This document shows, piece after piece, positions 43,938 to 56,543 of a stretch of 64,000 nucleotides of DNA (position 1 is the stretch's first letter; the number at the start of each line of letters is the position of its first letter). Source of the DNA: Brachyspira pilosicoli (lineage in GTDB: Bacteria > Spirochaetota > Brachyspiria > Brachyspirales > Brachyspiraceae); NCBI RefSeq assembly GCF_036997485.1, contig NZ_JAWLPU010000004.1:248001-312000 (forward strand). The letters run 5' to 3'. A program made the position numbers and the translations under genes. The notes beneath the pieces were generated by a model. The model saw only the letters and a list, made by a program, of their open reading frames with translations. It ran no database searches and was not told the origin of the DNA.

Positions 43938-44145
43938 TAATTTTGATATTATAAATAATGTGAAATAATCGTTTTTTATATTAAAAAATTACAAGCTTGT
44001 ATATTATTGTTTATGCAAAAAAGCATGCGAAAAAACATTTTCTTAAATAAAACTTTTTTTATGAATATATTGAGATTTTTTTATTTAAATATAAAATAAT
44101 ATGATAACATAAAAATAATATGATAACAAAACAATAGGAGCGTGT

Positions 44146-44829
44146 ATGAGTATAGGTTCTGGAAAAATAGAGTTAGAAGAGGGTATAAAACTATTTAGAA
44201 ACGAGAACTATAAAGAGGCAATAGATTCTTTAGAAAAGATATTCTCTGAAAATAATGATGTAGAATCTGGATACCACCTTGCTTTATCCTATGCACAGAT
44301 GCAGGATTATGATAATACACTTGAAGTTTTTGATAAGATTTTAAGAAGACTTGATAATCCTCTTAGAATGATGCAGGCACATGTTATTGTTGGATATATA
44401 TATGCTATTAGAGAGATGTATGATTTGGCTGAGTTTGAACTTCTTGATGCTTTATCTTATGATATAGAAAATACTCAAATTTATTCTGTGCTTGGATATG
44501 TTTATTATAAGAAAAAAAACTCAAGGAAGGCTATAGAGTACTTAAGAAAGGCCCTTGCTGTAGATGGAGAAAATCCAAATGCAAGAAACTCATTAGGTTT
44601 TATATTGGTTGATAGTGATATTAATATAGATGAAGGAATAGAAGAGATAAAAAAAGCTTTGCATAAAGACCCTTCTAATCCTGCATATTTAGACTCTTTG
44701 GGTTGGGCTTATTTCAAAAAGAAAGATATTGCTAATGCAAAAAATTATCTTACTAAAGCATTTGAAATAGCTCCTTCCAATAAAGATATAAAAGATCATC
44801 TTTTACAGCTTGACAATTATAAGATGTAA
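44146..44829 (+). CDS. tetratricopeptide-repeat protein
   Basis: 227 residues with about six TPR units (KEAIDSLEKIFSENNDVESG, RKAIEYLRKALAVDGENPNA, and so on) and no signal peptide. It is cytoplasmic or membrane-associated and probably a scaffold. AGGAGCG lies 5-7 bp before the ATG. It begins a four-gene cluster with two M23 peptidases and a membrane-anchored propeller protein (gaps 24 and 6 bp, then a 4-bp overlap). Confidence 0.85.
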   Translation: MSIGSGKIELEEGIKLFRNENYKEAIDSLEKIFSENNDVESGYHLALSYAQMQDYDNTLEVFDKILRRLDNPLRMMQAHVIVGYIYAIREMYDLAEFELLDALSYDIENTQIYSVLGYVYYKKKNSRKAIEYLRKALAVDGENPNARNSLGFILVDSDINIDEGIEEIKKALHKDPSNPAYLDSLGWAYFKKKDIANAKNYLTKAFEIAPSNKDIKDHLLQLDNYKM

Positions 44830-44853
44830 TATTTTTTTGGAGGTTTATTGTTT

Positions 44854-46032
44854 ATGAAAAATTATATAGTATTTTTTGTTTTTTTATTATCTTTATCATT
44901 ATATTCTCAATATGATTTAAAATATATTGGAAAAGTAGAAGTTTTGAGAGATGGTAAAAATATTAGTTTTAGCAATAAGGTTTATGATGGAGATACTATT
45001 AGAACTTCAAAGAATGCTTTTGCTGAGATAAAAATAAAAAATAAATATTATTATCTATCAGACAATACATCTCTTTATATAAAGAATGGAGAGATTAATT
45101 TAGTTAATGGTACTTATTATAATAGAGGTAATCAATTTAATTCTATTAATGATTTTAAAAGTTATGATAAAGATTTAAAAGTTTATGTTGATCCTTATCC
45201 ATTTTATGCTGGGAAAGTTTCTACTATTTACATAACTTCTAAAGATGATGTAAAAATAAAAAATGCAAAATTAATGGGAAGTGCAAGACCTATAGTGAAA
45301 TTTTTTGAAGTAAAAGATGCAAGCGATAAGATGAAAGTTTATAAGAGTGTGTTTGGAATATATGTAGGCTCTCAAGATAAAAAATATCAGTTTCAATCTA
45401 ATGTTGAGCTTAAAGATAAAACTATAGCTACAGTAGCTTTAGACATTGATTTGGATTTTACACCGCCTCCTCCAAAGCCTAAACAAATACAAGGTGTTAC
45501 AACAACTATGAAAAATATTATAAGTAATCCTCAAAAATCTAAAGAGGAAAGAGAACTTCTTAACGGTAAAATTTATATAAGCTATACACCAACAAATTAT
45601 GCAGACACTGTTTATATAATGCCGGCACAAGGAAGGTATTCTTCTGGATTTGGTGCTTTTAGAGGATATACTAAAGATTATGCTCGATATCATCAAGGGT
45701 TTGATATTGCCAACACTAACGGCACGCCAATAATAGCTGCTAATAATGGAGTTGTCAGAGTTTCAAGAGAATTATTTGTAAGGGGTAATTGTGTTGTTAT
45801 AGACCATGGACAAGGTGTTTACAGCAGTTATTTCCACATGTCTAAACTAATAGCTAAAGAGGGGCAGTATGTTAAAAAAGGTGATATTATTGGACTTATA
45901 GGCTCTACTGGTATGTCTACAGGACCTCATTGCCATTGGGAGATGAGGGCAGGAAATATGACTTTTGACCCTTTAAGCATATTAGATAAACCTACGAAAT
46001 TTAATGTAAGAGTGCTTACGGAGTTAAAATAA
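44854..46032 (+). CDS. secreted M23 metallopeptidase with FecR-like N-terminal domain
   Basis: 392 residues from ATG 44854, 10 bp after GGAGG (TTG 44848 is the alternative). Signal peptide about 1-18. The N-terminal part (GKVEVLRDGKNISF, VYDGDTIRTSKNAFAEI) resembles FecR domains. The C-terminal LytM/M23 domain keeps the zinc ligands: HQGFDIAN (about residue 280) and HCHWEM (about residue 362). It would cut peptidoglycan cross-links. It is in an operon with another M23 protein. Confidence 0.88.
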   Translation: MKNYIVFFVFLLSLSLYSQYDLKYIGKVEVLRDGKNISFSNKVYDGDTIRTSKNAFAEIKIKNKYYYLSDNTSLYIKNGEINLVNGTYYNRGNQFNSINDFKSYDKDLKVYVDPYPFYAGKVSTIYITSKDDVKIKNAKLMGSARPIVKFFEVKDASDKMKVYKSVFGIYVGSQDKKYQFQSNVELKDKTIATVALDIDLDFTPPPPKPKQIQGVTTTMKNIISNPQKSKEERELLNGKIYISYTPTNYADTVYIMPAQGRYSSGFGAFRGYTKDYARYHQGFDIANTNGTPIIAANNGVVRVSRELFVRGNCVVIDHGQGVYSSYFHMSKLIAKEGQYVKKGDIIGLIGSTGMSTGPHCHWEMRAGNMTFDPLSILDKPTKFNVRVLTELK

Positions 46033-46038
46033 TTTCTG

Positions 46039-47208
46039 ATGAGCGAATTTAAAATTATAGATGTAAAAAATATACATAATGCTGAACCTTTTGTTGTTAG
46101 ATATTTAACTTTAATAAGTGCTTTTATTTTAGTTTTATTGTTTATATTTATATTCGGCACTAATAGGCTTAATGAAGAATATAATATAATTAATATATGG
46201 AATAAAGAAATATCTTCTACGTTAGACCCTGTTAATGATAATAACTATAGTATAGAAGGTACTTTTAAGCATAATTTCTTTTCAAAGCCTGAAGGTATAA
46301 TTCACTATTTTGATTCTAAAGGCAGAACTTTCTACTATACTAATTTATCTGCTGGTGAGTTGGCATCATTGAATAATGGATATTTTATCAAGTATAAGAG
46401 ATACGGAAATGTTATAGAATGCTATAACAACAGCGGAGAGATTTTATGGCGTACTAATACTTCTGTATATCCAGAGATTTCACCTTATGCTAATAGGAGT
46501 ATTTATCATTCAAGCGATAACTCTAAAGTGCAGATGTTTGATTATGATAATAATCCTTTAAGCGAACATATACAATATGGAGAAATTATTACAGATGGTG
46601 CTTTTGCTTCATATACAGGTGATTATATATCAGGTTTTTCCAGCGGTGATATAGCATATATAAACAGAAACGGCAAAATGGATTTTAGTATATCTACAAT
46701 ACTTAGCGAGATAAACATAGTAAAATCTGTTGCTTTAAGCGAGTATGGAAGTTTTGCTTTATCTATCAGCGGCATAAGACCTGAGTATATAACTTTGTAT
46801 GATTCTAAGGGCAAATCCTTATGGTATTTGGATACTACTCTCAACAGAAGAAAGCATGTATCTTCTTATGTAAGTGAAAAATCAATGCGCGCTTTCATGC
46901 TTGCGGATAGAGATATCATAATATATTCTCTAAATAGCGGTAAAGAGATTAACAGAATAAATATAGAAAAATATAATATGCTTAATGCTGTTAATATGAA
47001 GCTTAATGCCGAAACTAATTCCACTATAATGAGTGTATCTAAATCTGGAAATAGTGAAGTGCTTATATATGACAATAAACTTGAAGAGGTGATATTTGAG
47101 AAAGGTATAGATGCTTGGGTTTATTATGTTGATATATCTACAGAGTATAATGAATATATGATAGTTAGCGATAAAATGATATATACTTATAAGAGAGTGA
47201 AGTTATGA
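46039..47208 (+). CDS. membrane-anchored beta-propeller-like protein
   Basis: 389 residues. One membrane segment at about 24-42 (LISAFILVLLFIFIFGT) anchors a beta-rich periplasmic domain with repeated four-strand units (HYFDSKGRTFYYTN, ITLYDSKGKSLWYLDT, IYDNKLEEVIFEKG), like PQQ or WD40 propeller blades. It starts 6 bp after one M23 gene and overlaps the next by 4 bp, so the three are co-translated. It may tether or regulate the peptidases; this is inferred from context only. Confidence 0.75.
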   Translation: MSEFKIIDVKNIHNAEPFVVRYLTLISAFILVLLFIFIFGTNRLNEEYNIINIWNKEISSTLDPVNDNNYSIEGTFKHNFFSKPEGIIHYFDSKGRTFYYTNLSAGELASLNNGYFIKYKRYGNVIECYNNSGEILWRTNTSVYPEISPYANRSIYHSSDNSKVQMFDYDNNPLSEHIQYGEIITDGAFASYTGDYISGFSSGDIAYINRNGKMDFSISTILSEINIVKSVALSEYGSFALSISGIRPEYITLYDSKGKSLWYLDTTLNRRKHVSSYVSEKSMRAFMLADRDIIIYSLNSGKEINRINIEKYNMLNAVNMKLNAETNSTIMSVSKSGNSEVLIYDNKLEEVIFEKGIDAWVYYVDISTEYNEYMIVSDKMIYTYKRVKL

Positions 47209-48062
47209 TAAAAAAAAGTTTATTATTTATTTTATTTATTCAAGCAATGGTTTTTGCGAGAATTCCTATTGATGAAAATAAGATTAGAATAACAAGCACA
47301 TTCGGTGAGTTTAGAACAGACCACTTTCATAATGGAGTAGATTTTGGAGGGAACAAAATGCCTATATATCCTATAGCTGATGGAGAGATAGTGCATTATT
47401 CTGATTTTGATGAAGACCCTACAAGGCCAGTATATGGAGTTGGAAATACACTTATAGTAGAACATTCCGAAGGCATTAGGAGTTATTATTATCATATAGA
47501 CAATGGAAGCATAGAAAAAAATTATGCCAAAGTTACAGAAAATGATATTCTTGCTTTAACAGGCAACACTGGACGTTCTGGAGGGGCTCATTTACATCTT
47601 ACAATAGAAGATATGAGAAAGGGCTTGGTTATAGATCCTCTTGCTTATCTTAATATGAATAAAGGCTCTGAACAATCTCCTTTAATACACGGTATATATT
47701 TAAGAACAGAAAATAGGCTAATACAGATAAAAGATAATATGTCTATAAAATATAATGATGAAATAAAATTATTTGTTAAAGCTTATGATTTGCTTGGAAG
47801 TATTCCTATGGGGCTTAAAAGAGTTAAAATATATATGAATGATGATTTGCTTAGAGATTATGATTTTACTTATTTTATTAAGCAGAACAATGTTTATTAT
47901 ATATCACCAAATTACAGATTTGAAGATGTTTATGGGGTTGATTCTCATTATTATAGGGGAGGCTCTTTTATACCTAAGCGAGGTAAATACGTCTTTAAAG
48001 CAGAGGTTACAGATTTTGATGATAAGAGCGTTGTTCTTACAAGAAGTGTGAATTTCCGTTAA
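47205..48062 (+). CDS. secreted M23 metallopeptidase
   Basis: 285 residues. Signal peptide about 1-18 (LFIQAMVFA). The M23 domain comes first: HFHNGVDFGG (zinc His and Asp, about residue 45) and HLHLTIEDM (about residue 130), with both ligand sets kept. A beta-rich tail of about 130 residues follows (YDLLGSIPMGLKRVKIY). The domain order is opposite to that of 44854. The ATGA overlap couples it to the propeller gene. It probably acts on peptidoglycan. Confidence 0.88.
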   Translation: MIKKSLLFILFIQAMVFARIPIDENKIRITSTFGEFRTDHFHNGVDFGGNKMPIYPIADGEIVHYSDFDEDPTRPVYGVGNTLIVEHSEGIRSYYYHIDNGSIEKNYAKVTENDILALTGNTGRSGGAHLHLTIEDMRKGLVIDPLAYLNMNKGSEQSPLIHGIYLRTENRLIQIKDNMSIKYNDEIKLFVKAYDLLGSIPMGLKRVKIYMNDDLLRDYDFTYFIKQNNVYYISPNYRFEDVYGVDSHYYRGGSFIPKRGKYVFKAEVTDFDDKSVVLTRSVNFR

Positions 48063-48141
48063 AATTATTTAAAAGTTATTTATAGCAGCATTTCTATATG
48101 TTATTATTATTAAATAAAAATTATATATTGCTTTTTACACA

Positions 48142-48222
48142 CCGCACGCTAAACTAAAAAAAGAATATAAATTAATTAGAAATATAATTTTTATTATATT
48201 GATAAGTTTATTTAACGTGCGG
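48142..48222. repeat. 81-bp element with CCGCACG/CGTGCGG ends
   Basis: CCGCACG at the left end and CGTGCGG at the right are complementary; the interior is AT-only-like. It resembles the 84-bp elements at 53331 and 54799 in ends and length. No transposase is present. It may be a mini inverted-repeat element. Confidence 0.6.
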
Positions 48223-48367
48223 GAAAATATATTTATAATCTAATTAAAATTTTTTGGCTACGTGCTTTTAAATTTTTCATTGTAAAATAAAAATAATAAT
48301 TTAAAACCATACAGAAAAGTTAATAATAGCGAGTGTTTATTTTTATTTATATTTTACAAAGTAGCGG

Positions 48368-48384
48368 TATACTTAGTAAGTATA
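48368..48384. promoter_or_regulatory. perfect 17-bp palindrome upstream of metN promoter
   Basis: TATACTTA-G-TAAGTATA, perfect in all eight arm positions, lies 35 bp upstream of the -35 hexamer. It is a candidate binding site for a regulator of the operon; none is identified. Confidence 0.45.
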
Positions 48385-48419
48385 TTTATTTTATAAACAA
48401 GTTGTTTTCATAATTATTA

Positions 48420-48447
48420 TTGACAGAAATATATATAATTATATAAT
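48420..48447 (+). promoter_or_regulatory. promoter of the metN operon
   Basis: TTGACA (48420-48425), 16 bp, TATAAT (48442-48447); both hexamers are perfect. Confidence 0.75.
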
Positions 48448-48477
48448 GTATAGAATAAAATTTAAATCGGAATAATA

Positions 48478-49530
48478 ATGATAGTAATAGAAAATGTTAG
48501 TAAAGTATTTACAACAGCAAACAATAAAGAACTTAATGCTGTAAATAATGTATCTATAAAAATAGAAGACGGCGAGATATACGGAATAATAGGTTTTTCT
48601 GGTGCTGGCAAGTCTACACTTGTAAGATGTATTAATTTACTTGAAAGACCTACTTCTGGAAAGGTTTATATAGATAATGTTGATATGATGTCTTTATCTC
48701 AAAGAGAACTAAGAGAGAAAAGAAAAAAGATAGGAATGATATTTCAGCAATTTAATTTATTTGGTTCAAGGAATGTATTTAAAAATGTTGCTTATCCTTT
48801 AAGATATAGGGGGCTTTCAAAAAAAGAAGTTGAAGATAAGGTTATGTATTTGCTTGAGCTTGTAGATATAAAGGAGAAAGCTTATGCTTATCCATCACAA
48901 TTAAGCGGCGGGCAAAAACAAAGAGTAGCTATTGCTAGGGCTTTGGCTAATGAGCCTAATATACTTCTTTGTGATGAAGCTACTAGTGCATTAGACCCTC
49001 AAACTACTGGTTCTATACTGAAATTATTAAAAAAATTAAATGAGAAATTAAAGATTACTATAGTTGTAATAACTCATGAGATGAATGTAGTTAAAGAATT
49101 ATGCCATAGAGTTGCTGTTATGAATGCCGGTAATTTAATAGAAGAAGGTAATATTTTTGATGTATTTTCTTCACCAAAAAATAAAATAACACAAGATTTT
49201 ATAGATACTACATCAAACCTTTCTAAAATATATAATTTAGTAGAAGAAAATAACGATATCACTGTTTTAAAAGAAAATGAGTGTATATTAAGACTTAGAT
49301 ACAAAAAGGGCGGTGTTGTAGAAGCTTTTATTTCGCATATATCTAGGACTTTTAATGTTAATGCTAATATTATTTTTGCTAATGTTGAGTTTATTGATGA
49401 TAGTTTGCTTGGAGGGCTTGTTGTTATAATGCATGAAAGAGAGGCTGGCGGAATAAATAGAGCTATAGATTTTCTTAAAGAAAAAAATGTCGATGTGGAG
49501 GTAGTATCCGATGCTAGAACTTCTAAATAA
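48478..49530 (+). CDS. metN: methionine ABC transporter ATP-binding protein
   Basis: 350 residues. Walker A GFSGAGKST, signature QLSGGQKQRVAIARA, Walker B ILLCDEATSALD, H-loop VITHE. The C-terminal roughly 80 residues form the NIL ligand-sensing domain (FINVNANIIFANVEFI-like strands), which in MetN senses methionine and lowers transport when it is plentiful. It overlaps metI by 20 bp. It energises uptake with MetI and the two MetQ lipoproteins. Confidence 0.93.
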   Translation: MIVIENVSKVFTTANNKELNAVNNVSIKIEDGEIYGIIGFSGAGKSTLVRCINLLERPTSGKVYIDNVDMMSLSQRELREKRKKIGMIFQQFNLFGSRNVFKNVAYPLRYRGLSKKEVEDKVMYLLELVDIKEKAYAYPSQLSGGQKQRVAIARALANEPNILLCDEATSALDPQTTGSILKLLKKLNEKLKITIVVITHEMNVVKELCHRVAVMNAGNLIEEGNIFDVFSSPKNKITQDFIDTTSNLSKIYNLVEENNDITVLKENECILRLRYKKGGVVEAFISHISRTFNVNANIIFANVEFIDDSLLGGLVVIMHEREAGGINRAIDFLKEKNVDVEVVSDARTSK

Positions 49531-50191
49531 ATTAATACCGAATGTAATGAATGATTTACCAAAGCTTTATGATAGTATTATACAAACTTTTATTATGCTT
49601 TTATATTCTGGTGTTATATCATTTTTTGTAGGCGGATTTTTGGGTATACTTTTAATTGTTACTAAGAGATACGGCATTATGCAAAACATTATAATATATG
49701 AAGTGCTTAGTAAGGTTATTAACTTTTTTAGGGCTATACCTTTTATAATACTTCTTGCCATGCTTGTACCTTTAACAAGATTTATAATGGGTACTGCTAT
49801 TGGCGTAAAGGGTGCTATATTGCCTCTAATTTTTGGAACGGTTCCTTTTTTTGCAAGGCAAATGGAGAGTGCTTTATCTGAAGTAAACCCAGGACTTGTA
49901 GAAGCAGCTCAATCTATGGGTTCTTCTCCTATAGCTATAATATTTAGAGTTTATTTAAAAGAAAGTATTGCACCTATAGCAAGAGGAACTACCATAACCG
50001 CTATTAGTTTAATAGGGCTTACTGCCATGGCTGGTGCTGTTGGTGCTGGAGGGCTTGGTACTTATGCTATACAGTCTGGATACTACAGAAATAAATTAGA
50101 TATTATTTATGTTTCTGTGATACTTCTTGTAATACTTGTTGGATTAATACAGGCACTTGGTAATTTTATAGTAAAAAAAGCTACACATTAA
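49511..50191 (+). CDS. metI: methionine ABC transporter permease
   Basis: 226 residues with five membrane helices. The EAA loop (EAAQSMGSSPIAIIFRVYL, about residue 138) contacts MetN. The start lies inside metN and overlaps it by 20 bp, indicating coupled translation. Length and helix count match MetI. A dehydrogenase gene follows after 31 bp, before the binding proteins. Confidence 0.92.
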   Translation: MLELLNKLIPNVMNDLPKLYDSIIQTFIMLLYSGVISFFVGGFLGILLIVTKRYGIMQNIIIYEVLSKVINFFRAIPFIILLAMLVPLTRFIMGTAIGVKGAILPLIFGTVPFFARQMESALSEVNPGLVEAAQSMGSSPIAIIFRVYLKESIAPIARGTTITAISLIGLTAMAGAVGAGGLGTYAIQSGYYRNKLDIIYVSVILLVILVGLIQALGNFIVKKATH

Positions 50192-50222
50192 AAAGTTATA
50201 TTTTTATAAAGGATTTATTATT

Positions 50223-51173
50223 ATGATTAAAAATAGAAAAGTAGTTATTATAGGGGCGGGCCATGTAGGCTCTCATGTGGGATATGCTTTAGCAGCTCAA
50301 GGTTTAGTTGAAAATATTGTTTATATTGATATAGACAAGAAAAAAGCTTTTGCTCAGGCTCTTGATATATTTGATGCTACTGTTTATCTTCCTCATAGAG
50401 TTGAAGTTAAAGCTGGAGATTATAGTGATATTGATGATGCTGATTTAATGGTTGTATGTGCTGGACCTTTGCCTAAAGAAAATCAAACTAGAATGGATAC
50501 TTTGGGTGCTACTGTAGAAGTTATGAAAGATATAGTAGCTAATATTAAAAAGACTAAATTTAATGGAATTATAATTAATATTTCTAATCCTGCTGATGTT
50601 ATTACTCATTATTTACAAAACAAGTTAAATTATGACACTAAAAGAATAATATCTACAAGCACAACATTAGACTCTGCCAGATTAAGACGAGCTATATCCG
50701 AGGCTATTAATGTTGATCAAAAATCTGTATATGCTTATGCATTAGGCGAACATGGTGAAAGCCAAATGGTTGCTTGGTCTTGTGTAACTATAGCAGGAAA
50801 GCCTTTATTTGAGCTTATGAAAGAAGGCAAAGACAAATATGCTAAATTAGATTTGAATGAATTAGCTGATAAAGGAAGAAGAGGCGGTTGGGATGTTTTA
50901 TTAGGTAAAGGTTCTACCGAGTTTGGAATAGGAACTTCACTTGCTGAGGTTGCTAGGGCTATACTTTCTGATGAGCATAGAGTTTTACCTGTTTCAGTTT
51001 ATCTTAACGGTGAGTATGGTCAAAAAGATGTTTATGCTTCTGTGCCTGCAGTTTTGGGAGCTAATGGAGTTGAAGAGATAATTGAGCTTAAAATGAATGA
51101 AGAAGAGAAAAAACTCTTTGATGCTTCTTGCGATACCATGACTAAAAATTATAAATTATCACTTACCATGTGA
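50223..51173 (+). CDS. ldh: L-lactate/L-2-hydroxyacid dehydrogenase
   Basis: 316 residues of the LDH/MDH family. It has the NAD motif GAGHVGSHVG (11-20), the Asp-Arg pair in LDSARLRR (about 149) and the catalytic His in GEHGES (about 176). The substrate loop, however, reads GPLPKENQTR where lactate dehydrogenases usually have Q-K-P-G-E-T-R: a Pro takes the place of the specificity Gln. L-2-hydroxyisocaproate dehydrogenases also alter this loop. It may therefore reduce larger 2-oxo acids. It sits inside the methionine transporter operon, between metI and metQ. Confidence 0.88.
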   Translation: MIKNRKVVIIGAGHVGSHVGYALAAQGLVENIVYIDIDKKKAFAQALDIFDATVYLPHRVEVKAGDYSDIDDADLMVVCAGPLPKENQTRMDTLGATVEVMKDIVANIKKTKFNGIIINISNPADVITHYLQNKLNYDTKRIISTSTTLDSARLRRAISEAINVDQKSVYAYALGEHGESQMVAWSCVTIAGKPLFELMKEGKDKYAKLDLNELADKGRRGGWDVLLGKGSTEFGIGTSLAEVARAILSDEHRVLPVSVYLNGEYGQKDVYASVPAVLGANGVEEIIELKMNEEEKKLFDASCDTMTKNYKLSLTM

Positions 51174-51252
51174 TAAACAATATTTCTTTTATTGTCTTAA
51201 ATATTTAAATTATTTAAAAAATTAAATTATTTATAAAGGGGAATGATATATA

Positions 51253-52062
51253 ATGAAAAAGGTTTTATTATTATTATGTTTCACATTATTTTTAGCTTCT
51301 TGCGGCGGAAGCAATGATAATAAAAAAGATTTAATCACGGTTAAGATTGGTCATGTTGGTGAATCTGACAGAACTATATGGAAGCCTGTACAAGAGAAAT
51401 TATTAAACGAAGGCATTAAAGTAGAATTAGTTTCTTTTGCTGATTACACTATACCAAATCAGGCATTAAATGACGGTGATATAGATTTAGATGCTTTTCA
51501 GCACCATGCATACTACAGCAATGAAGTTAATACTAAAGGTTATGATTTAGCTATATTGGGTGTTACTTATATATCTGCTATGAATATCTATTCTCATAAT
51601 ATTACAAATGTTAATGAGGTAAAAAATGGAGATAAAGTAGCTATACCTAATGACCCTGCTAATGGCGGAAGGGCTTTAAAAGTGTTAGAGGCTGCTGGTT
51701 TAATAAAGTTAAAAGATAATGCTCCAGACAATCCTACAGTTAATGATATAGAAAATCCTTTAAATTTAGAGATTATAGAAGTTGATGCGGGTAGTTTATA
51801 TAGTTTGCTTCCTGATGTTGCTTGTGCTGTTATTAATTGTAATTATGCTTTAGATTTTGGACTTAATCCGGGTGCTGATTATATATTTAGAGATGACCCT
51901 AAAAATTATGACAATAATATGTATATAAACTTAATAGCTTCAAGAGCTTCCGATAAGGATAATGAGATTTATAAAAGGATAGTAGAGGCTTATCAATCTG
52001 CTGAAGTAGAAAAAGTTTATGCTGAAGATTTCAAGGGAGCTTATATACCTGCTTGGAAATAA
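51253..52062 (+). CDS. metQ: MetQ-like substrate-binding lipoprotein 1
   Basis: 269 residues. Lipobox LFLASC, lipidated Cys17. It is the NlpA/MetQ family: KIGHVGESDRTIWKPVQEKL, DYTIPNQALNDGDIDLDAFQH, VAIPNDPANGGRALKVLEAAG. It captures methionine or a related amino acid for MetNI. AAAGGGG precedes the ATG. The gene is about 70 percent alike by eye to its neighbour at 52110. It resembles the 29.7-kDa Blp/BmpB lipoproteins described in Brachyspira hyodysenteriae. Confidence 0.93.
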   Translation: MKKVLLLLCFTLFLASCGGSNDNKKDLITVKIGHVGESDRTIWKPVQEKLLNEGIKVELVSFADYTIPNQALNDGDIDLDAFQHHAYYSNEVNTKGYDLAILGVTYISAMNIYSHNITNVNEVKNGDKVAIPNDPANGGRALKVLEAAGLIKLKDNAPDNPTVNDIENPLNLEIIEVDAGSLYSLLPDVACAVINCNYALDFGLNPGADYIFRDDPKNYDNNMYINLIASRASDKDNEIYKRIVEAYQSAEVEKVYAEDFKGAYIPAWK

Positions 52063-52109
52063 AAATAATTATTTAATAATTTTTAAAAATTTTAATAAGG
52101 AGTTAATAA

Positions 52110-52931
52110 ATGAAGAAAATTTTATTAGTTGCAGCTTTTGCATCATTAATTTTCACTTTTAGTGCATGCGGCGGCGGAAAATCTAATGCAAATGATAACA
52201 ATATAGTAAAAGTTGGATTTGCAGGAGAGTCTGATTATCAAATTTGGAATCCTATAGTAGAGAAATTAGCAGAAGATGGTATTAAAGTAGAATTAGTTTC
52301 TTTTGCTGATTACACTATACCAAATCAAGCTTTAAATGATGGTGAGATTGATTTAAATGCTTTTCAGCATTATGCTTATTTTAATGATGAAATATCAAAT
52401 AAAGGTTATGATTTAACTGCTATTGCTGATACTTATATATCTGCTATGAATATTTATTCTACAAATATTACAGATGTAAAAGAAGTTAAAAATGGAGATA
52501 AAGTGGCTATACCTAATGACCCTTCTAATGGAGGAAGAGCTTTAAAGGTTTTGGAGGCTGCTGGTTTAATAAAAGTAAGACCTGAAGCAGGCGATTCTCC
52601 TAGTGTAGCTGATATAGTAGAAAATCCTTTAAATTTAGAGATTGTAGAAGTTGATGCAGGAGGTATTTACAGTTTGCTTCCTGATGTTGCTTGTGCTGTT
52701 ATAAACGGAAATTATGCTATAGATTTTGGTCTTAACCCTGGTTCTGATTATATTTTCAAAGATGACCCTGCAATATACAGCACTAAATCTTTTGTTAATT
52801 TAATTGCTGCTAGAACTGCTGATAAAGATAATGAATTATATAAAAAAGTTGTTGCTGCTTATCAGTCTGAAATAGTAGAGAAAGTTTATAATGAGAATTT
52901 CAAAGGTTCTTATTTGCCAACTTGGAAATAA
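52110..52931 (+). CDS. metQ: MetQ-like substrate-binding lipoprotein 2
   Basis: 273 residues, lipobox TFSAC with Cys20. It shares long blocks with the preceding protein (KVELVSFADYTIPNQAL, NGDKVAIPNDPSNGGRALKV). Differences gather in the first 45 mature residues and around DTYISAMNIYSTN, so ligand range may differ slightly. It ends the operon at a strong terminator. A tandem copy made by duplication is the simplest reading. Confidence 0.93.
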   Translation: MKKILLVAAFASLIFTFSACGGGKSNANDNNIVKVGFAGESDYQIWNPIVEKLAEDGIKVELVSFADYTIPNQALNDGEIDLNAFQHYAYFNDEISNKGYDLTAIADTYISAMNIYSTNITDVKEVKNGDKVAIPNDPSNGGRALKVLEAAGLIKVRPEAGDSPSVADIVENPLNLEIVEVDAGGIYSLLPDVACAVINGNYAIDFGLNPGSDYIFKDDPAIYSTKSFVNLIAARTADKDNELYKKVVAAYQSEIVEKVYNENFKGSYLPTWK

Positions 52932-52952
52932 AAATAATTTTTTAAATTATAA

Positions 52953-52996
52953 AAATAAACCTCTATCAATTAGTTTTGTTAGAGGTTTATTTTTAT
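52953..52996 (+). terminator. terminator of the metN operon
   Basis: AATAAACCTCTA pairs perfectly with TAGAGGTTTATT, followed by TTTATATTTTTT. Confidence 0.85.
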
Positions 52997-53016
52997 ATTT
53001 TTTGCTATAAAAAGTT

Positions 53017-53226
53017 TTATTTTCTTAATTTTCTTCCTTGTTTATCTGTAAAAATATCTAACAATATTAAAACTATATCAACTATATACCATATTCCTAA
53101 ACCGCCAGCTGTAAGCCAATATAATATACCAGTTCCAACTTTTCCAACATAAAATCTATGTACCGGCAAAAATATTGCTAAAAGTAAAGTAACAACCCAA
53201 CTTCTATCAGATACTTCATTACTCAT
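53017..53226 (-). CDS. TM2 domain protein
   Basis: 69 residues. Two membrane segments (about 12-25 and 34-58) connected by VHRFYVGKVGTGILYWLTAG, which carries the TM2 family pattern of a short loop with a Gly-Arg/His-Phe-Tyr sequence. The C-terminus is basic (DKQGRKLRK). The function is unknown in bacteria. AGGAG precedes the ATG. It is a single gene. Confidence 0.85.
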   Translation of the reverse strand: MSNEVSDRSWVVTLLLAIFLPVHRFYVGKVGTGILYWLTAGGLGIWYIVDIVLILLDIFTDKQGRKLRK

Positions 53227-53330
53227 AATAAATCTCCTAATTTTTATTATTATTTGGAAATTATAATATATATTTTATAAAAATCAAAATTAAAAAACTA
53301 TATTTTTAAAATATCATAAGATTATTATTT

Positions 53331-53414
53331 AACGCACGTTTAATTTAGTATTAAAACAATATGTGTTAAAAGTAAAATAATTTTTATTAACAAATAGTAA
53401 ACTTACCGTGCGTT
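53331..53414. repeat. 84-bp element with AACGCACG/CGTGCGTT ends
   Basis: Perfect 8-bp inverted ends. The inside matches the element at 54799 at most positions and the length is the same (84 bp). No open frame is seen. Confidence 0.7.
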
Positions 53415-53443
53415 TTATTAGTTTTAAAAATTAATAAGCATTT

Positions 53444-53550
53444 GGGTGGGATTGCTTTTTTGTATAAGCAATAAAATATAAACAAAATTAAAAAATGAAA
53501 TTTAACTGAAAAAAATAAAGGGCGGGGTATGTAAATAGATTTTAATATTT
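53444..53550. repeat. about 107-bp repeat, copy A, upstream of the outer-membrane gene
   Basis: Begins GGGTGGGATT and ends GGGCGGGGTATGTAAATAGATTTTAATATTT. Its order of G-rich, AT-rich and G-rich parts is repeated at 54566-54680, after the gene. The 53227-53610 gap holds this, the 84-bp element and the promoter at 53553. Confidence 0.65.
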
Positions 53551-53552
53551 AG

Positions 53553-53580
53553 TTGTTTTTTTATATTTATATAGTATTAT
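53553..53580 (+). promoter_or_regulatory. probable promoter of the outer-membrane gene
   Basis: TTGTTT (53553-53558), 16 bp, TATTAT (53575-53580), directly after repeat copy A. Confidence 0.5.
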
Positions 53581-53610
53581 CTTCTGCAATTAATAATATT
53601 AGGAGTTTGT

Positions 53611-54480
53611 ATGAAAAAAGTAGTGTTATCTGTTTTAATATTCATTGCACTATTTACTAAATCAGCATTTACAGAATTTGAAGGTAGCATATATGTACCT
53701 ATAGGTATTGCTTCCACATTACCTAATATAGTGGAGCCTAAACGGAAGTTTGTCAGAAATATTTATATAGATACAACTAAACAAGATATGAGTTTTAATA
53801 TTGGGGTTACTGGAAATTTCGGATATAGATTCAATATAAATGAAAATAATGCTATAAGTATATTAACTGAAATAGGATATTCAAGGCTTGATTTTGCATC
53901 TACATTTAAAGCTCAAACTGATAACAATTATGGCAATAATAAAATATATAATGCAAGTCAGAATTTAGTTTTTCATACACTAAATATAGGATTAATGCCT
54001 AAATATGCTGTTAATCTTACTTCTTTACTTAAAGATTTTAATTCAAACTATGATGGAAAGATGGAGCTTAATATAGGTATAGGTTTTGGAATGAAAATAG
54101 CATTGGCTGGTGAATATTATAATACAATGAATAATGATGCTGATGAAAATTATAAAAGTCATTTAGCCGAAAAATATTCATTCAAAGATATAAAAAGGAA
54201 ATTTGATTATCCGTTTATACCATATATAAAACTTCAAATGGATGACTATTTTTATTTTAATGAAAAGGTAGCATTTTTATTTGGAATAAGTTTAATATAT
54301 AATTTTGATATATTCTATGATATTGCTAATATGTCTTATGAAGATTATCAAAAAATATATGAAGGATATCCAAGTATTGGAGGCGGTGCTATTGGTTATT
54401 ATGATGATTATGATATTAAGAAATACGGTTTTTCTAGTTTTGAAATAGCTTTCAATTTAGGTATAAAATTTGGAAATTAA
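53611..54480 (+). CDS. putative outer-membrane beta-barrel protein between repeats
   Basis: 289 residues. Signal peptide about 1-21 (IFIALFTKSAFTE). The mature part has long alternating strands (MSFNIGVTGNFGYRFNI, KMELNIGIGFGMKIAL, FSSFEIAFNLGIKFGN) and ends in a Phe-rich strand, typical of barrel proteins. Acidic, Tyr-rich loops (YDDYDIKKYG) may face outward. The TAGGAG site precedes the ATG. It lies between two copies of a repeat, so it may be a mobile or swapped cassette. The family is not recognised. Confidence 0.75.
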   Translation: MKKVVLSVLIFIALFTKSAFTEFEGSIYVPIGIASTLPNIVEPKRKFVRNIYIDTTKQDMSFNIGVTGNFGYRFNINENNAISILTEIGYSRLDFASTFKAQTDNNYGNNKIYNASQNLVFHTLNIGLMPKYAVNLTSLLKDFNSNYDGKMELNIGIGFGMKIALAGEYYNTMNNDADENYKSHLAEKYSFKDIKRKFDYPFIPYIKLQMDDYFYFNEKVAFLFGISLIYNFDIFYDIANMSYEDYQKIYEGYPSIGGGAIGYYDDYDIKKYGFSSFEIAFNLGIKFGN

Positions 54481-54499
54481 TATTAACAGATAACACTAT

Positions 54500-54540
54500 A
54501 AAAAAGATACCTGCCATTTAAAGACAAGTATCTTTTTTAT
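54500..54540 (+). terminator. terminator after the outer-membrane gene
   Basis: AAAAAAGATAC pairs with GTATCTTTTTT across a 17-base loop, with a T-run. Confidence 0.8.
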
Positions 54541-54565
54541 AAAGACTATAAATTTAAAAAATCTT

Positions 54566-54690
54566 GGGCGGGTGTGATTTTTTCTGTGTGAGTATGTAAA
54601 TATAAATAAAAATAGAAAAATCAAATTTAATCAAAAAAGTATAAAGGGGGGGGGATGTAAATAGATTTTAAATTTTATTTACGCCCCCCA
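54566..54690. repeat. repeat copy B with a G9 tract and hairpin
   Basis: Begins GGGCGGGTGTG and reaches GGATGTAAATAGATTTTAAA, parallel to copy A. It adds a run of nine G (54646-54654), and GGGGGG-ATGTAAAT pairs with ATTTACGCCCCCC (54677-54689). The 54481-54998 gap holds the terminator, this repeat and the 84-bp element at 54799; no gene. Confidence 0.6.
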
Positions 54691-54798
54691 CCCTCAATAT
54701 TCAATGCTTAATTTTGAATTTATAGTTTTAATTATATTTATTATTTTTATATAAATTATAGAGCCCACCCTATAGTTTTTTTAATTTAAAGCTATATT

Positions 54799-54882
54799 AA
54801 CGCACGCTTAATTTACTACAAAAATAAGTGTCCCAAAAATAAAATAATGTTTATTATACAAAAAATCTGCTTACCGTGCGTA
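54799..54882. repeat. 84-bp element with AACGCACG/CGTGCGTA ends
   Basis: Same length and orientation-independent ends as the element at 53331, with one mismatch at the outermost base pair. TTACCGTGCG at the right end is shared exactly. Confidence 0.7.
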
Positions 54883-54998
54883 TTTAAAAATCTATGTATT
54901 ATGATAACTATTAATTGAAATTTTATTGTTTTAATATAATATTGTCTAATTAATCTTAATAAATCATAAATCATGTTTTTATTTTAAAGAGGAAAAAT

Positions 54999-56543
54999 AT
55001 GCAAAACAATATTGATAAAGTTTTAATACTAGATTTTGGCTCTCAGTTTACGCAGCTTATTACAAGAAGAATAAGAGAATTGAATGTTTATTCAGAGATT
55101 CACCCATTTCATGTTTCAATAGATTTTGTAAAAGAGTTTAATCCAAAAGCAATAATACTTTCTGGAGGACCTTCAAGTGTGTATGAAGAAGATGCTCCTA
55201 AAGTAGATAAAAAGTTATTTGAACTTGGTGTGCCTATACTTGGAATATGCTATGGTATGCAAATAATAGTTTATTCTATGGGCGGAAAAGTTGAAAGTGC
55301 AGAAAAACGCGAATATGGAAAAGCTGAAATTGAAATTACTAATCATGAAAGCATATTTAAATCATTCGGTAAAAGCAATGTGGTGTGGATGAGTCATGGG
55401 GATAGTATAAAATCTATTCCTGAAGGTTTTGAACTTATAGCTAAAACACCTAATACTGAACTTGCTGCTATAGAAAATAAAGAGAAAAATATTTATGCTA
55501 TACAGTTTCACCCTGAAGTAGTTCATACAGAAAACGGAATAAAGATAATAGAAAATTTTTTATTTAATATTTGTAAGTGTGAAAGAAATTGGAATATGGG
55601 TTCTTTTATAGAATATGAAATAAAAAGAATAAAAGAAACTGTAGGAGATAAAAATGTAATACTTGGGCTTTCTGGTGGAGTTGATTCTTCTGTAGCTGCA
55701 GTGTTAATAGAAAAAGCTATAGGCAAGCAATTAAAATGTATATTTGTTAATAATGGACTTTTGAGAAAAGATGAAGATAAAAAGGTTGTTGAAGTATTTA
55801 GAGATAATTTCAATATTGATTTGATTTATGTTGATGCTTCAAAGAGATTTTTAGATAAATTAGCTGGTGTTACTGACCCAGAGCAAAAGAGAAAAATAAT
55901 AGGACATGAATTTGTAAATGTATTTAATGATGAAGCTAAAAAGATAGAAAATGTAGGATTTTTAGCACAGGGTACACTTTATCCTGATGTAATAGAGAGT
56001 GTTTCGTTAAGAGGAAGTTCTGCAGTTATAAAAAGCCATCATAATGTAGGCGGACTTCCTAAAGACATGAAATTTGAACTTTTAGAGCCTTTCAGAGAAT
56101 TATTTAAAGATGAAGTGAGAGAGATTGGTTTAGAGTTAAAGCTTCCAGAAGATATAGTATACAGACAGCCTTTCCCAGGTCCTGGTTTGGCAGTTAGAAT
56201 ATTAGGAGATATCACAGAAGAGAGGGTTAAAATACTTCAAGAAGCTGATGATATAGTTGTAAGCGAGATAAAAAAAGCTGGACTTTATAGAAAATTATGG
56301 CAGTCTTTTGCTATACTTCTTCCTATAAAAAGCGTTGGTGTTATGGGTGACGGCCGTACTTATGAACAAGTTTGTGCTGTGAGGGCTGTTGAAAGTGTTG
56401 ATGCCATGACTGCTGATTGGGCTAAAATTGATTATAATGTTTTGGGTATAATATCAAACAGAATAATAAACGAAGTTAAAGGTATTAACCGTGTTGTTTA
56501 TGATATATCTTCAAAACCGCCTGCTACTATAGAATGGGAATAA
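54999..56543 (+). CDS. guaA: GMP synthase (glutamine-hydrolysing)
   Basis: 514 residues. Makes GMP from XMP, ATP and glutamine. The N-terminal amidotransferase has the Cys in GICYGMQ (about 84) and QFHPEV (about 173). The ATP-pyrophosphatase P-loop is [12 protein letters not shown] (about 225). The C-terminal dimerisation domain ends KPPATIEWE, the family's standard ending. AGAGGA precedes the ATG. A methyltransferase gene follows after 9 bp. Confidence 0.97.

Follow-up and report, generated by a model that had tools for sequence, protein, structure and literature searches.

We propose that the LDH-superfamily gene in a methionine-type transporter operon of Brachyspira pilosicoli encodes an NAD-dependent L-2-hydroxyacid dehydrogenase that probably acts on a methionine-type 2-oxo acid and is co-expressed with a MetNIQ importer. 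The enzyme most likely interconverts the 2-oxo acid and the hydroxy acid of the imported amino acid, rather than making lactate in glycolysis. The imported amino acid is probably methionine. The proposal is built on sequence comparison and gene neighborhoods in the window, the whole 64,000-nucleotide stretch of DNA that we analyzed, and in related genomes. The features of the operon and of a repeated element around it are listed in the table.

Table. Features of the operon and of the repeated element, in window positions
Feature	Position	Strand	Remarks
Promoter-like site TTGACA-16-TATAAT	48420..48447	+	upstream of metN; 12/12 consensus match
metN-type ABC transporter ATPase, C-terminal NIL domain	48478..49530	+	PF00005 and PF09383 above cut-off
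metI-type permease	49511..50191	+	PF00528 above cut-off; 20-base overlap with metN
LDH-superfamily protein, putative L-2-hydroxyacid dehydrogenase, 316 aa	50223..51173	+	PF00056 and PF02866 above cut-off
metQ-type substrate-binding lipoprotein 1 (metQ1)	51253..52062	+	PF03180, 242 bits
metQ-type substrate-binding lipoprotein 2 (metQ2)	52110..52931	+	PF03180, 252 bits
Terminator-like hairpin with U-run, operon end	52948..52997	+	-23.2 kcal/mol; z = -8.3 vs shuffles
Intergenic element of about 80 nt, ends CGCACGYTWAAYTW...CGTGCG	48143-48221, 53333-53412, 54801-54880		three copies in window

The original prediction placed the dehydrogenase gene between metI and two metQ genes, and the coordinates, the frame and the neighbors were all correct. 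The genes run metN-metI-LDH-metQ-metQ on the plus strand, with a gap of 31 bases between metI and the dehydrogenase. The operon thus unites the MetNIQ gene set, that is, metN with a NIL domain, metI, and metQ (PF03180). The scores of metN, metI and metQ lie below the NCBIfam curated cut-offs (383 bits against 499.7 for metN in TIGR02314, and 186.5 against 212 for metI in PRK10782). The closest solved structure to MetQ2 is E. coli MetQ (4yah; E=3.6e-55), with which it shares the stretches NAFQH..Y, PNDP.N.GR and AVIN..YA in the alignment. The ligand of the importer is presumably methionine or a close analogue. Of the 24 Brachyspira operons that we examined, 22 have a perfect 12/12 promoter site 58 to 113 bases upstream of metN; one of the other two has an 11/12 site, and one has no site of at least 10/12. 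The hairpin at the operon end has a long AU-rich stem with the core CCUCU/AGAGG. Because metN, metI and metQ flank the dehydrogenase gene on the same strand, the perfect promoter is kept and the hairpin closes the unit, the gene very probably belongs to the operon and does not stand there by accident. Control by a SAM riboswitch or a T-box was rejected: no Rfam family matched at E<=1 in window positions 44000 to 56000, and neither control element matched at the gathering score in ten non-Brachyspira loci.

By family models, the protein looks like an L-lactate dehydrogenase. It scores 344.2 bits against the curated L-lactate dehydrogenase equivalog TIGR01771 (cut-off, 303.55) and 333 bits against PRK00066, slightly under the cut-off of 339. 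The AlphaFold model (pLDDT, 94.6) has L-LDHs as its best fold matches, with a TM-score of about 0.9. It is the sole PF00056 protein of the B. pilosicoli genome (2.72 Mb assembly), and the proteins of strains T010 and PC5538III-hc are 99 and 97% identical to it. The catalytic set is complete, with Arg90, Asn122, Asp150, Arg153 and His177 corresponding to LDH Arg109, Asn140, Asp168, Arg171 and His195. These residues are invariant across Brachyspira; in the wider alignment of 36 rows, they are invariant too, except for Asp168, which is nearly so. The Asp in the beta2 motif DID suggests a preference for NAD. Malate dehydrogenase was ruled out, because position 102 is Pro and not Arg and the malate dehydrogenase equivalog models score far under their cut-offs. 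His188 of the fructose-1,6-bisphosphate (FBP) site is replaced by Tyr170 in the window protein; it is missing in 53 of 54 subfamily members and present in one. Nonallosteric LDHs also lack this His, so its absence excludes only the FBP-activated type of LDH.

The substrate pocket is where the protein departs from LDHs. Pro had been predicted in place of the lactate-specificity Gln, and alignment with the Enterococcus mundtii and Staphylococcus aureus LDHs indeed puts Pro84 at position 102. All members of the subfamily have this Pro. The loop reads C-A-G-P-L-P-K-E-N-Q-T-R in the window protein, A-G-V-N-Q-K-P-G-Q-T-R in the E. mundtii LDH (3wsv) and A-G-A-A-Q-K-P-G-E-T-R in the S. aureus LDH. 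The general patterns are G-x-x-Q-K-P-G-E/Q-T-R in LDHs versus G-P-L-P-D-x-x-K-G-Q-T-R in the Clostridia members of the subfamily. The latter loop is two residues longer than that of the window protein, which has LDH length; most Brachyspira proteins have the shorter loop, but B. catarrhinii is without this shortening. An Asn-Gln pair in place of Gly-Glu had also been named as part of the changed loop. The alignment supports the substitution, but it is not diagnostic, because the subfamily as a whole normally has Gln here (GQTR), as does the ordinary LDH 3wsv, and because Asn comes along with the loop shortening, which B. catarrhinii lacks. In these alignments, a stronger clue is the motif RRGGWDVL, in which Gly221-Gly222-Trp223 stand where LDHs have Ala-Ala-Tyr. 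No Brachyspira member deviates from this motif. At positions 235-236, the Brachyspira and Clostridia proteins have Gly-Gly and those of Treponema have Ala-Gly; the next residue is Trp. The Bacillus stearothermophilus LDH has reportedly been engineered to accept bulky 2-oxo acids by changing Gln102 and the loop and by replacing Ala235/236 with Gly. We take these sites to be exactly the two changed places of this pocket. The prediction of a methionine-type transporter operon with a non-LDH-like pocket is supported by the metNIQ families on the one hand and by Pro102 and Gly-Gly on the other.

The arrangement is kept in the genus, as the original prediction had asked to be checked. A protein search gave matches in all 26 Brachyspira genomes, and in 24 of them the orthologue is 79 to 99% identical and lies within metN-metI-LDH-metQ. 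One of the other two (G017) has only a shortened relic of the dehydrogenase gene (L053:7152-7516), interrupted by stop codons and missing a large internal part, while metI and metQ on either side are intact; a canonical LDH is encoded elsewhere in the genome. The last (G019) has a canonical LDH (39% identity) with no metN-metI-LDH-metQ operon nearby. Two genomes (G001 and G003) have both the operon dehydrogenase and a canonical LDH with a normal loop. The genes that immediately flank the operon in the window were not found next to it in other Brachyspira genomes; therefore, the operon has stayed together while the genes around it changed. The dN/dS ratio of the dehydrogenase among close Brachyspira species is 0.04 to 0.09, comparable to those of metN and metQ and indicative of purifying selection. 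Because of this ratio, and because the gene order is kept in the genus and in two further bacterial groups, the arrangement is not a chance one. In three genomes of sister genera of the family, no match was found at E<=0.001.

Every Brachyspira operon on a sufficiently long contig has at least two metQ genes. The tandem copies number from about two to six (L036-L050, L059, L067-L076); some of them are broken, and they have diverged to as low as 38% identity. The lipoprotein Bhlp29.7/BmpB/BlpA presumably belongs to such a tandem metQ-type locus (blpGFEA). It is mentioned as a vaccine lipoprotein of B. hyodysenteriae (PMC4955376). Within the window, the hexamers CGCACG and CGTGCG occur nowhere but in the three copies of the repeated element, two of which flank the operon. 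The element has a near-constant length and a variable, AT-rich interior. It occurs in 11 copies in the B. pilosicoli genome, and a search of 19 Brachyspira genomes, that of the window among them, found it in 16. No copy was found in 12 other spirochete genomes, and the reversed control pattern gave no match. By this survey, it is a genus-specific dispersed element.

Outside the genus, the same arrangement of importer and enzyme recurs in unrelated gut and sediment bacteria. By a pattern scan that covered 84,980 species genomes, the dehydrogenase belongs to a tight group (59 to 73% identity) that includes Sedimentibacter, Clostridium, Lachnospiraceae, other Clostridia and Treponema. A class-wide search added one member, and only 2 of 391 genomes had a protein of at least 60% identity, one of them being the Sedimentibacter center itself. 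Plasmid-borne relatives are only distant LDHs (<60% identity). Among the 18 non-Brachyspira loci, metI lies directly upstream of the dehydrogenase at 17, at a distance of 19 to 96 bases, and metQ lies downstream at 16. The original prediction would have been refuted had relatives carried the gene outside the met operon. Across the 26 Brachyspira genomes and these 18 loci, this was not found, apart from one non-Brachyspira locus without metNIQ nearby and the one Brachyspira genome without the operon.

At 14 of the 18 loci, a class I aminotransferase continues the operon. Its closest solved structure is E. coli YbdL (1u08; E=1.6e-78), which is reported to act in vitro chiefly as a methionine aminotransferase and, to a lesser extent, on His, aromatics, Leu and Gln (PMC9309667). 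In Lachnospiraceae, Treponema and others, the cluster also encodes a GlcD-type flavoprotein, which among solved structures best matches LctD of the NAD/ferredoxin lactate dehydrogenase (7qh2), and an M20 amidohydrolase; several have a LysR regulator. At one locus (L083:7084-7218), the GlcD-type gene between metQ and the aminotransferase gene is reduced to a 45-residue match, which suggests that the flavoprotein gene has decayed there. Three Brachyspira genomes (G002, which is B. alvinipulli, G018 and G020) have kept the aminotransferase, 67 to 68% identical, about 30 bases after the last metQ. B. pilosicoli and the other Brachyspira have no linked aminotransferase. The best B. pilosicoli homologue is only 30% identical, and a search downstream of metQ2 found no relic of the gene. 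The sharing of the operon with a YbdL-type aminotransferase in Clostridia, Treponema and these three Brachyspira supports the prediction that the enzyme acts on a 2-oxo acid derived from an imported amino acid.

In the phylogenetic tree, the subfamily forms a clade (support, 100/99) well separated from canonical LDHs, among them the ones encoded by four other Brachyspira genomes, and the Brachyspira rows form a single clade within it (100/100). The L-2-hydroxyisocaproate dehydrogenase (L-HicDH) 1hyh falls on the side of the subfamily, but on a very long branch (2 to 3 changes per site) that leaves its position unsure. The Brachyspira operon, including the aminotransferase gene, probably came from Clostridia-like donors, with most species losing the aminotransferase gene later. 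Runs of Clostridium-like genes have been reported independently for the B. hyodysenteriae genome (PMC2650404).

A sister group of LDH-like proteins in Clostridia (45 to 47% identity) lies beside or inside TrpX-type ABC importer genes, in three orientations. The binding protein gene is divergent from the dehydrogenase gene (L095, L096 and L097), or the order is binding protein-LDH-permease-ATPase in one direction (L098), or the dehydrogenase gene is convergent with ATPase-permease-binding protein (L139 and L140). Four of the binding proteins score 300 to 359 bits against the tryptophan-binding model NF041285, below its cut-off of 390. Two further loci (L102 and L115) have a metNIQ-glcD-aminotransferase-M20 cluster with another LDH-like gene at its end. 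Because of the sister group and these two clusters, dehydrogenases matched to importers are the most economical reading. It is about as likely as not that these LDH-type 2-hydroxyacid dehydrogenases form an unrecognized clade whose subfamilies each go with a particular amino acid ABC importer and turn over the matching 2-oxo acid. If it holds, all members of the clade are currently annotated as lactate dehydrogenase, and the pairing of importer and enzyme yields a testable substrate prediction for each subfamily. In the wider group, one genome (G503) has two tandem LDH-like genes (L137:7494-9525) whose products are 53 and 45% identical to the query; the methionine sulfoxide reductase MsrA/B is encoded about 1.5 kb from them.

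In the mechanism that we propose, MetQ1 and MetQ2 would bind methionine or a closely similar compound, which MetNI would then import. An aminotransferase, unlinked or replaced in B. pilosicoli, would interconvert the amino acid and its 2-oxo acid, and the dehydrogenase would interconvert the 2-oxo acid and the L-2-hydroxy acid with NADH/NAD+. Our best guess for the 2-oxo acid is 4-methylthio-2-oxobutanoate, together with other medium-chain 2-oxo acids. The reductive direction would recycle NADH in a fermenter; the known products of B. hyodysenteriae are acetate, butyrate, ethanol, H2 and CO2 (PMC2650404). The oxidative direction would let a cell that is probably unable to synthesize methionine draw on hydroxy analogues; B. 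hyodysenteriae lacks the methionine synthesis genes (PMC2650404). We infer that neither direction is strongly favored.

That the operon simply harbors an ordinary L-lactate dehydrogenase, which makes or uses lactate, is improbable. The TIGR01771 score, the L-LDH fold and the lack of a second LDH-family gene in B. pilosicoli speak for it, and the first two, together with the missing linked aminotransferase and the importer scores below the curated cut-offs, are the points against the 2-hydroxyacid reading. However, Gln102 has become Pro and Ala-Ala has become Gly-Gly throughout Brachyspira, the FBP-site His is lost, and the linkage to an importer and an aminotransferase is kept across phyla. 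G001 and G003 already have a canonical LDH besides the operon gene, and the B. hyodysenteriae genome paper makes no mention of lactate (PMC2650404).

The remaining alternatives concern direction and substrate. Salvage by oxidation of L-2-hydroxy-4-methylthiobutanoate or a similar hydroxy acid to the 2-oxo acid, and on to methionine, in a methionine auxotroph is unlikely but worth keeping in mind, and it is compatible with our main explanation, which leaves the direction open. It would fit the missing biosynthesis genes of B. hyodysenteriae, and the flavin 2-hydroxyacid dehydrogenase and M20 amidohydrolase of Clostridia and Treponema resemble a salvage route for several methionine derivatives. 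However, both enzymes are absent from the Brachyspira operon, we saw no sign that MetQ binds hydroxy acids, and the equilibrium of 2-hydroxyacid dehydrogenases of this type generally lies toward reduction. Slightly less likely still is a branched-chain or aromatic substrate (2-oxoisocaproate, phenylpyruvate or indolepyruvate), with MetNIQ importing an amino acid other than methionine. The Gly-Gly pocket is that of L-HicDH, the sister subfamily adjoins TrpX-type importers, and YbdL has the side activities on Leu and aromatics (PMC9309667). However, the different importer type of the sister group suggests that every subfamily pairs with a particular importer, and E. coli MetQ is the nearest solved relative of MetQ2. 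We favor the methionine-type 2-oxo acid.

The automatic name L-lactate dehydrogenase is probably wrong for the whole subfamily, even though the curated cut-off is exceeded. In nearly all Brachyspira, the enzyme is attached to an importer that presumably supplies methionine to these spirochetes of animal and human guts. Hydroxy acids of amino acids, such as indolelactate, phenyllactate and 2-hydroxy-4-methylthiobutanoate, are relevant to gut signaling and animal nutrition.

In open-licence papers, we found no description of an LDH in a metNIQ operon. E. coli MetNIQ and YbdL are the nearest solved relatives of MetQ2 and the linked aminotransferase; to our knowledge, metNIQ and ybdL are not in one operon there and have no LDH-type partner. 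The Bifidobacterium aromatic lactate dehydrogenase (type 4 LDH, ALDH) is an LDH-family enzyme with very low pyruvate turnover (PMC8556157). It resembles our system in that an amino acid transaminase is encoded in the same genetic element, and differs in being linked to the transaminase and a haloacid dehalogenase, with no importer named in the passages on it (PMC8556157). Bacterial L-LDHs (TIGR01771; S. aureus LDH1, 3d0o, and E. mundtii, 3wsv) share the fold, the catalytic Arg/Asp/Arg/His and about 37 to 38% full-length identity with the dehydrogenase. Unlike them, it has Pro instead of Gln102, Gly-Gly instead of Ala-Ala at positions 235-236 and Trp instead of Tyr, lacks the FBP-site His, and is encoded inside an amino acid importer operon. 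L-HicDH (1hyh) is an L-specific enzyme of the same superfamily. Its specificity loop (NIKLQQDNPTGDR) is longer than that of the window protein or the Clostridia members, and its pocket has Gly-Gly-Phe instead of Gly-Gly-Trp. However, the two proteins have in common the Gly-Gly (RKGGFTVL versus KGRRGGWDVL) and the stretch SQxVAWS that follows the catalytic His.
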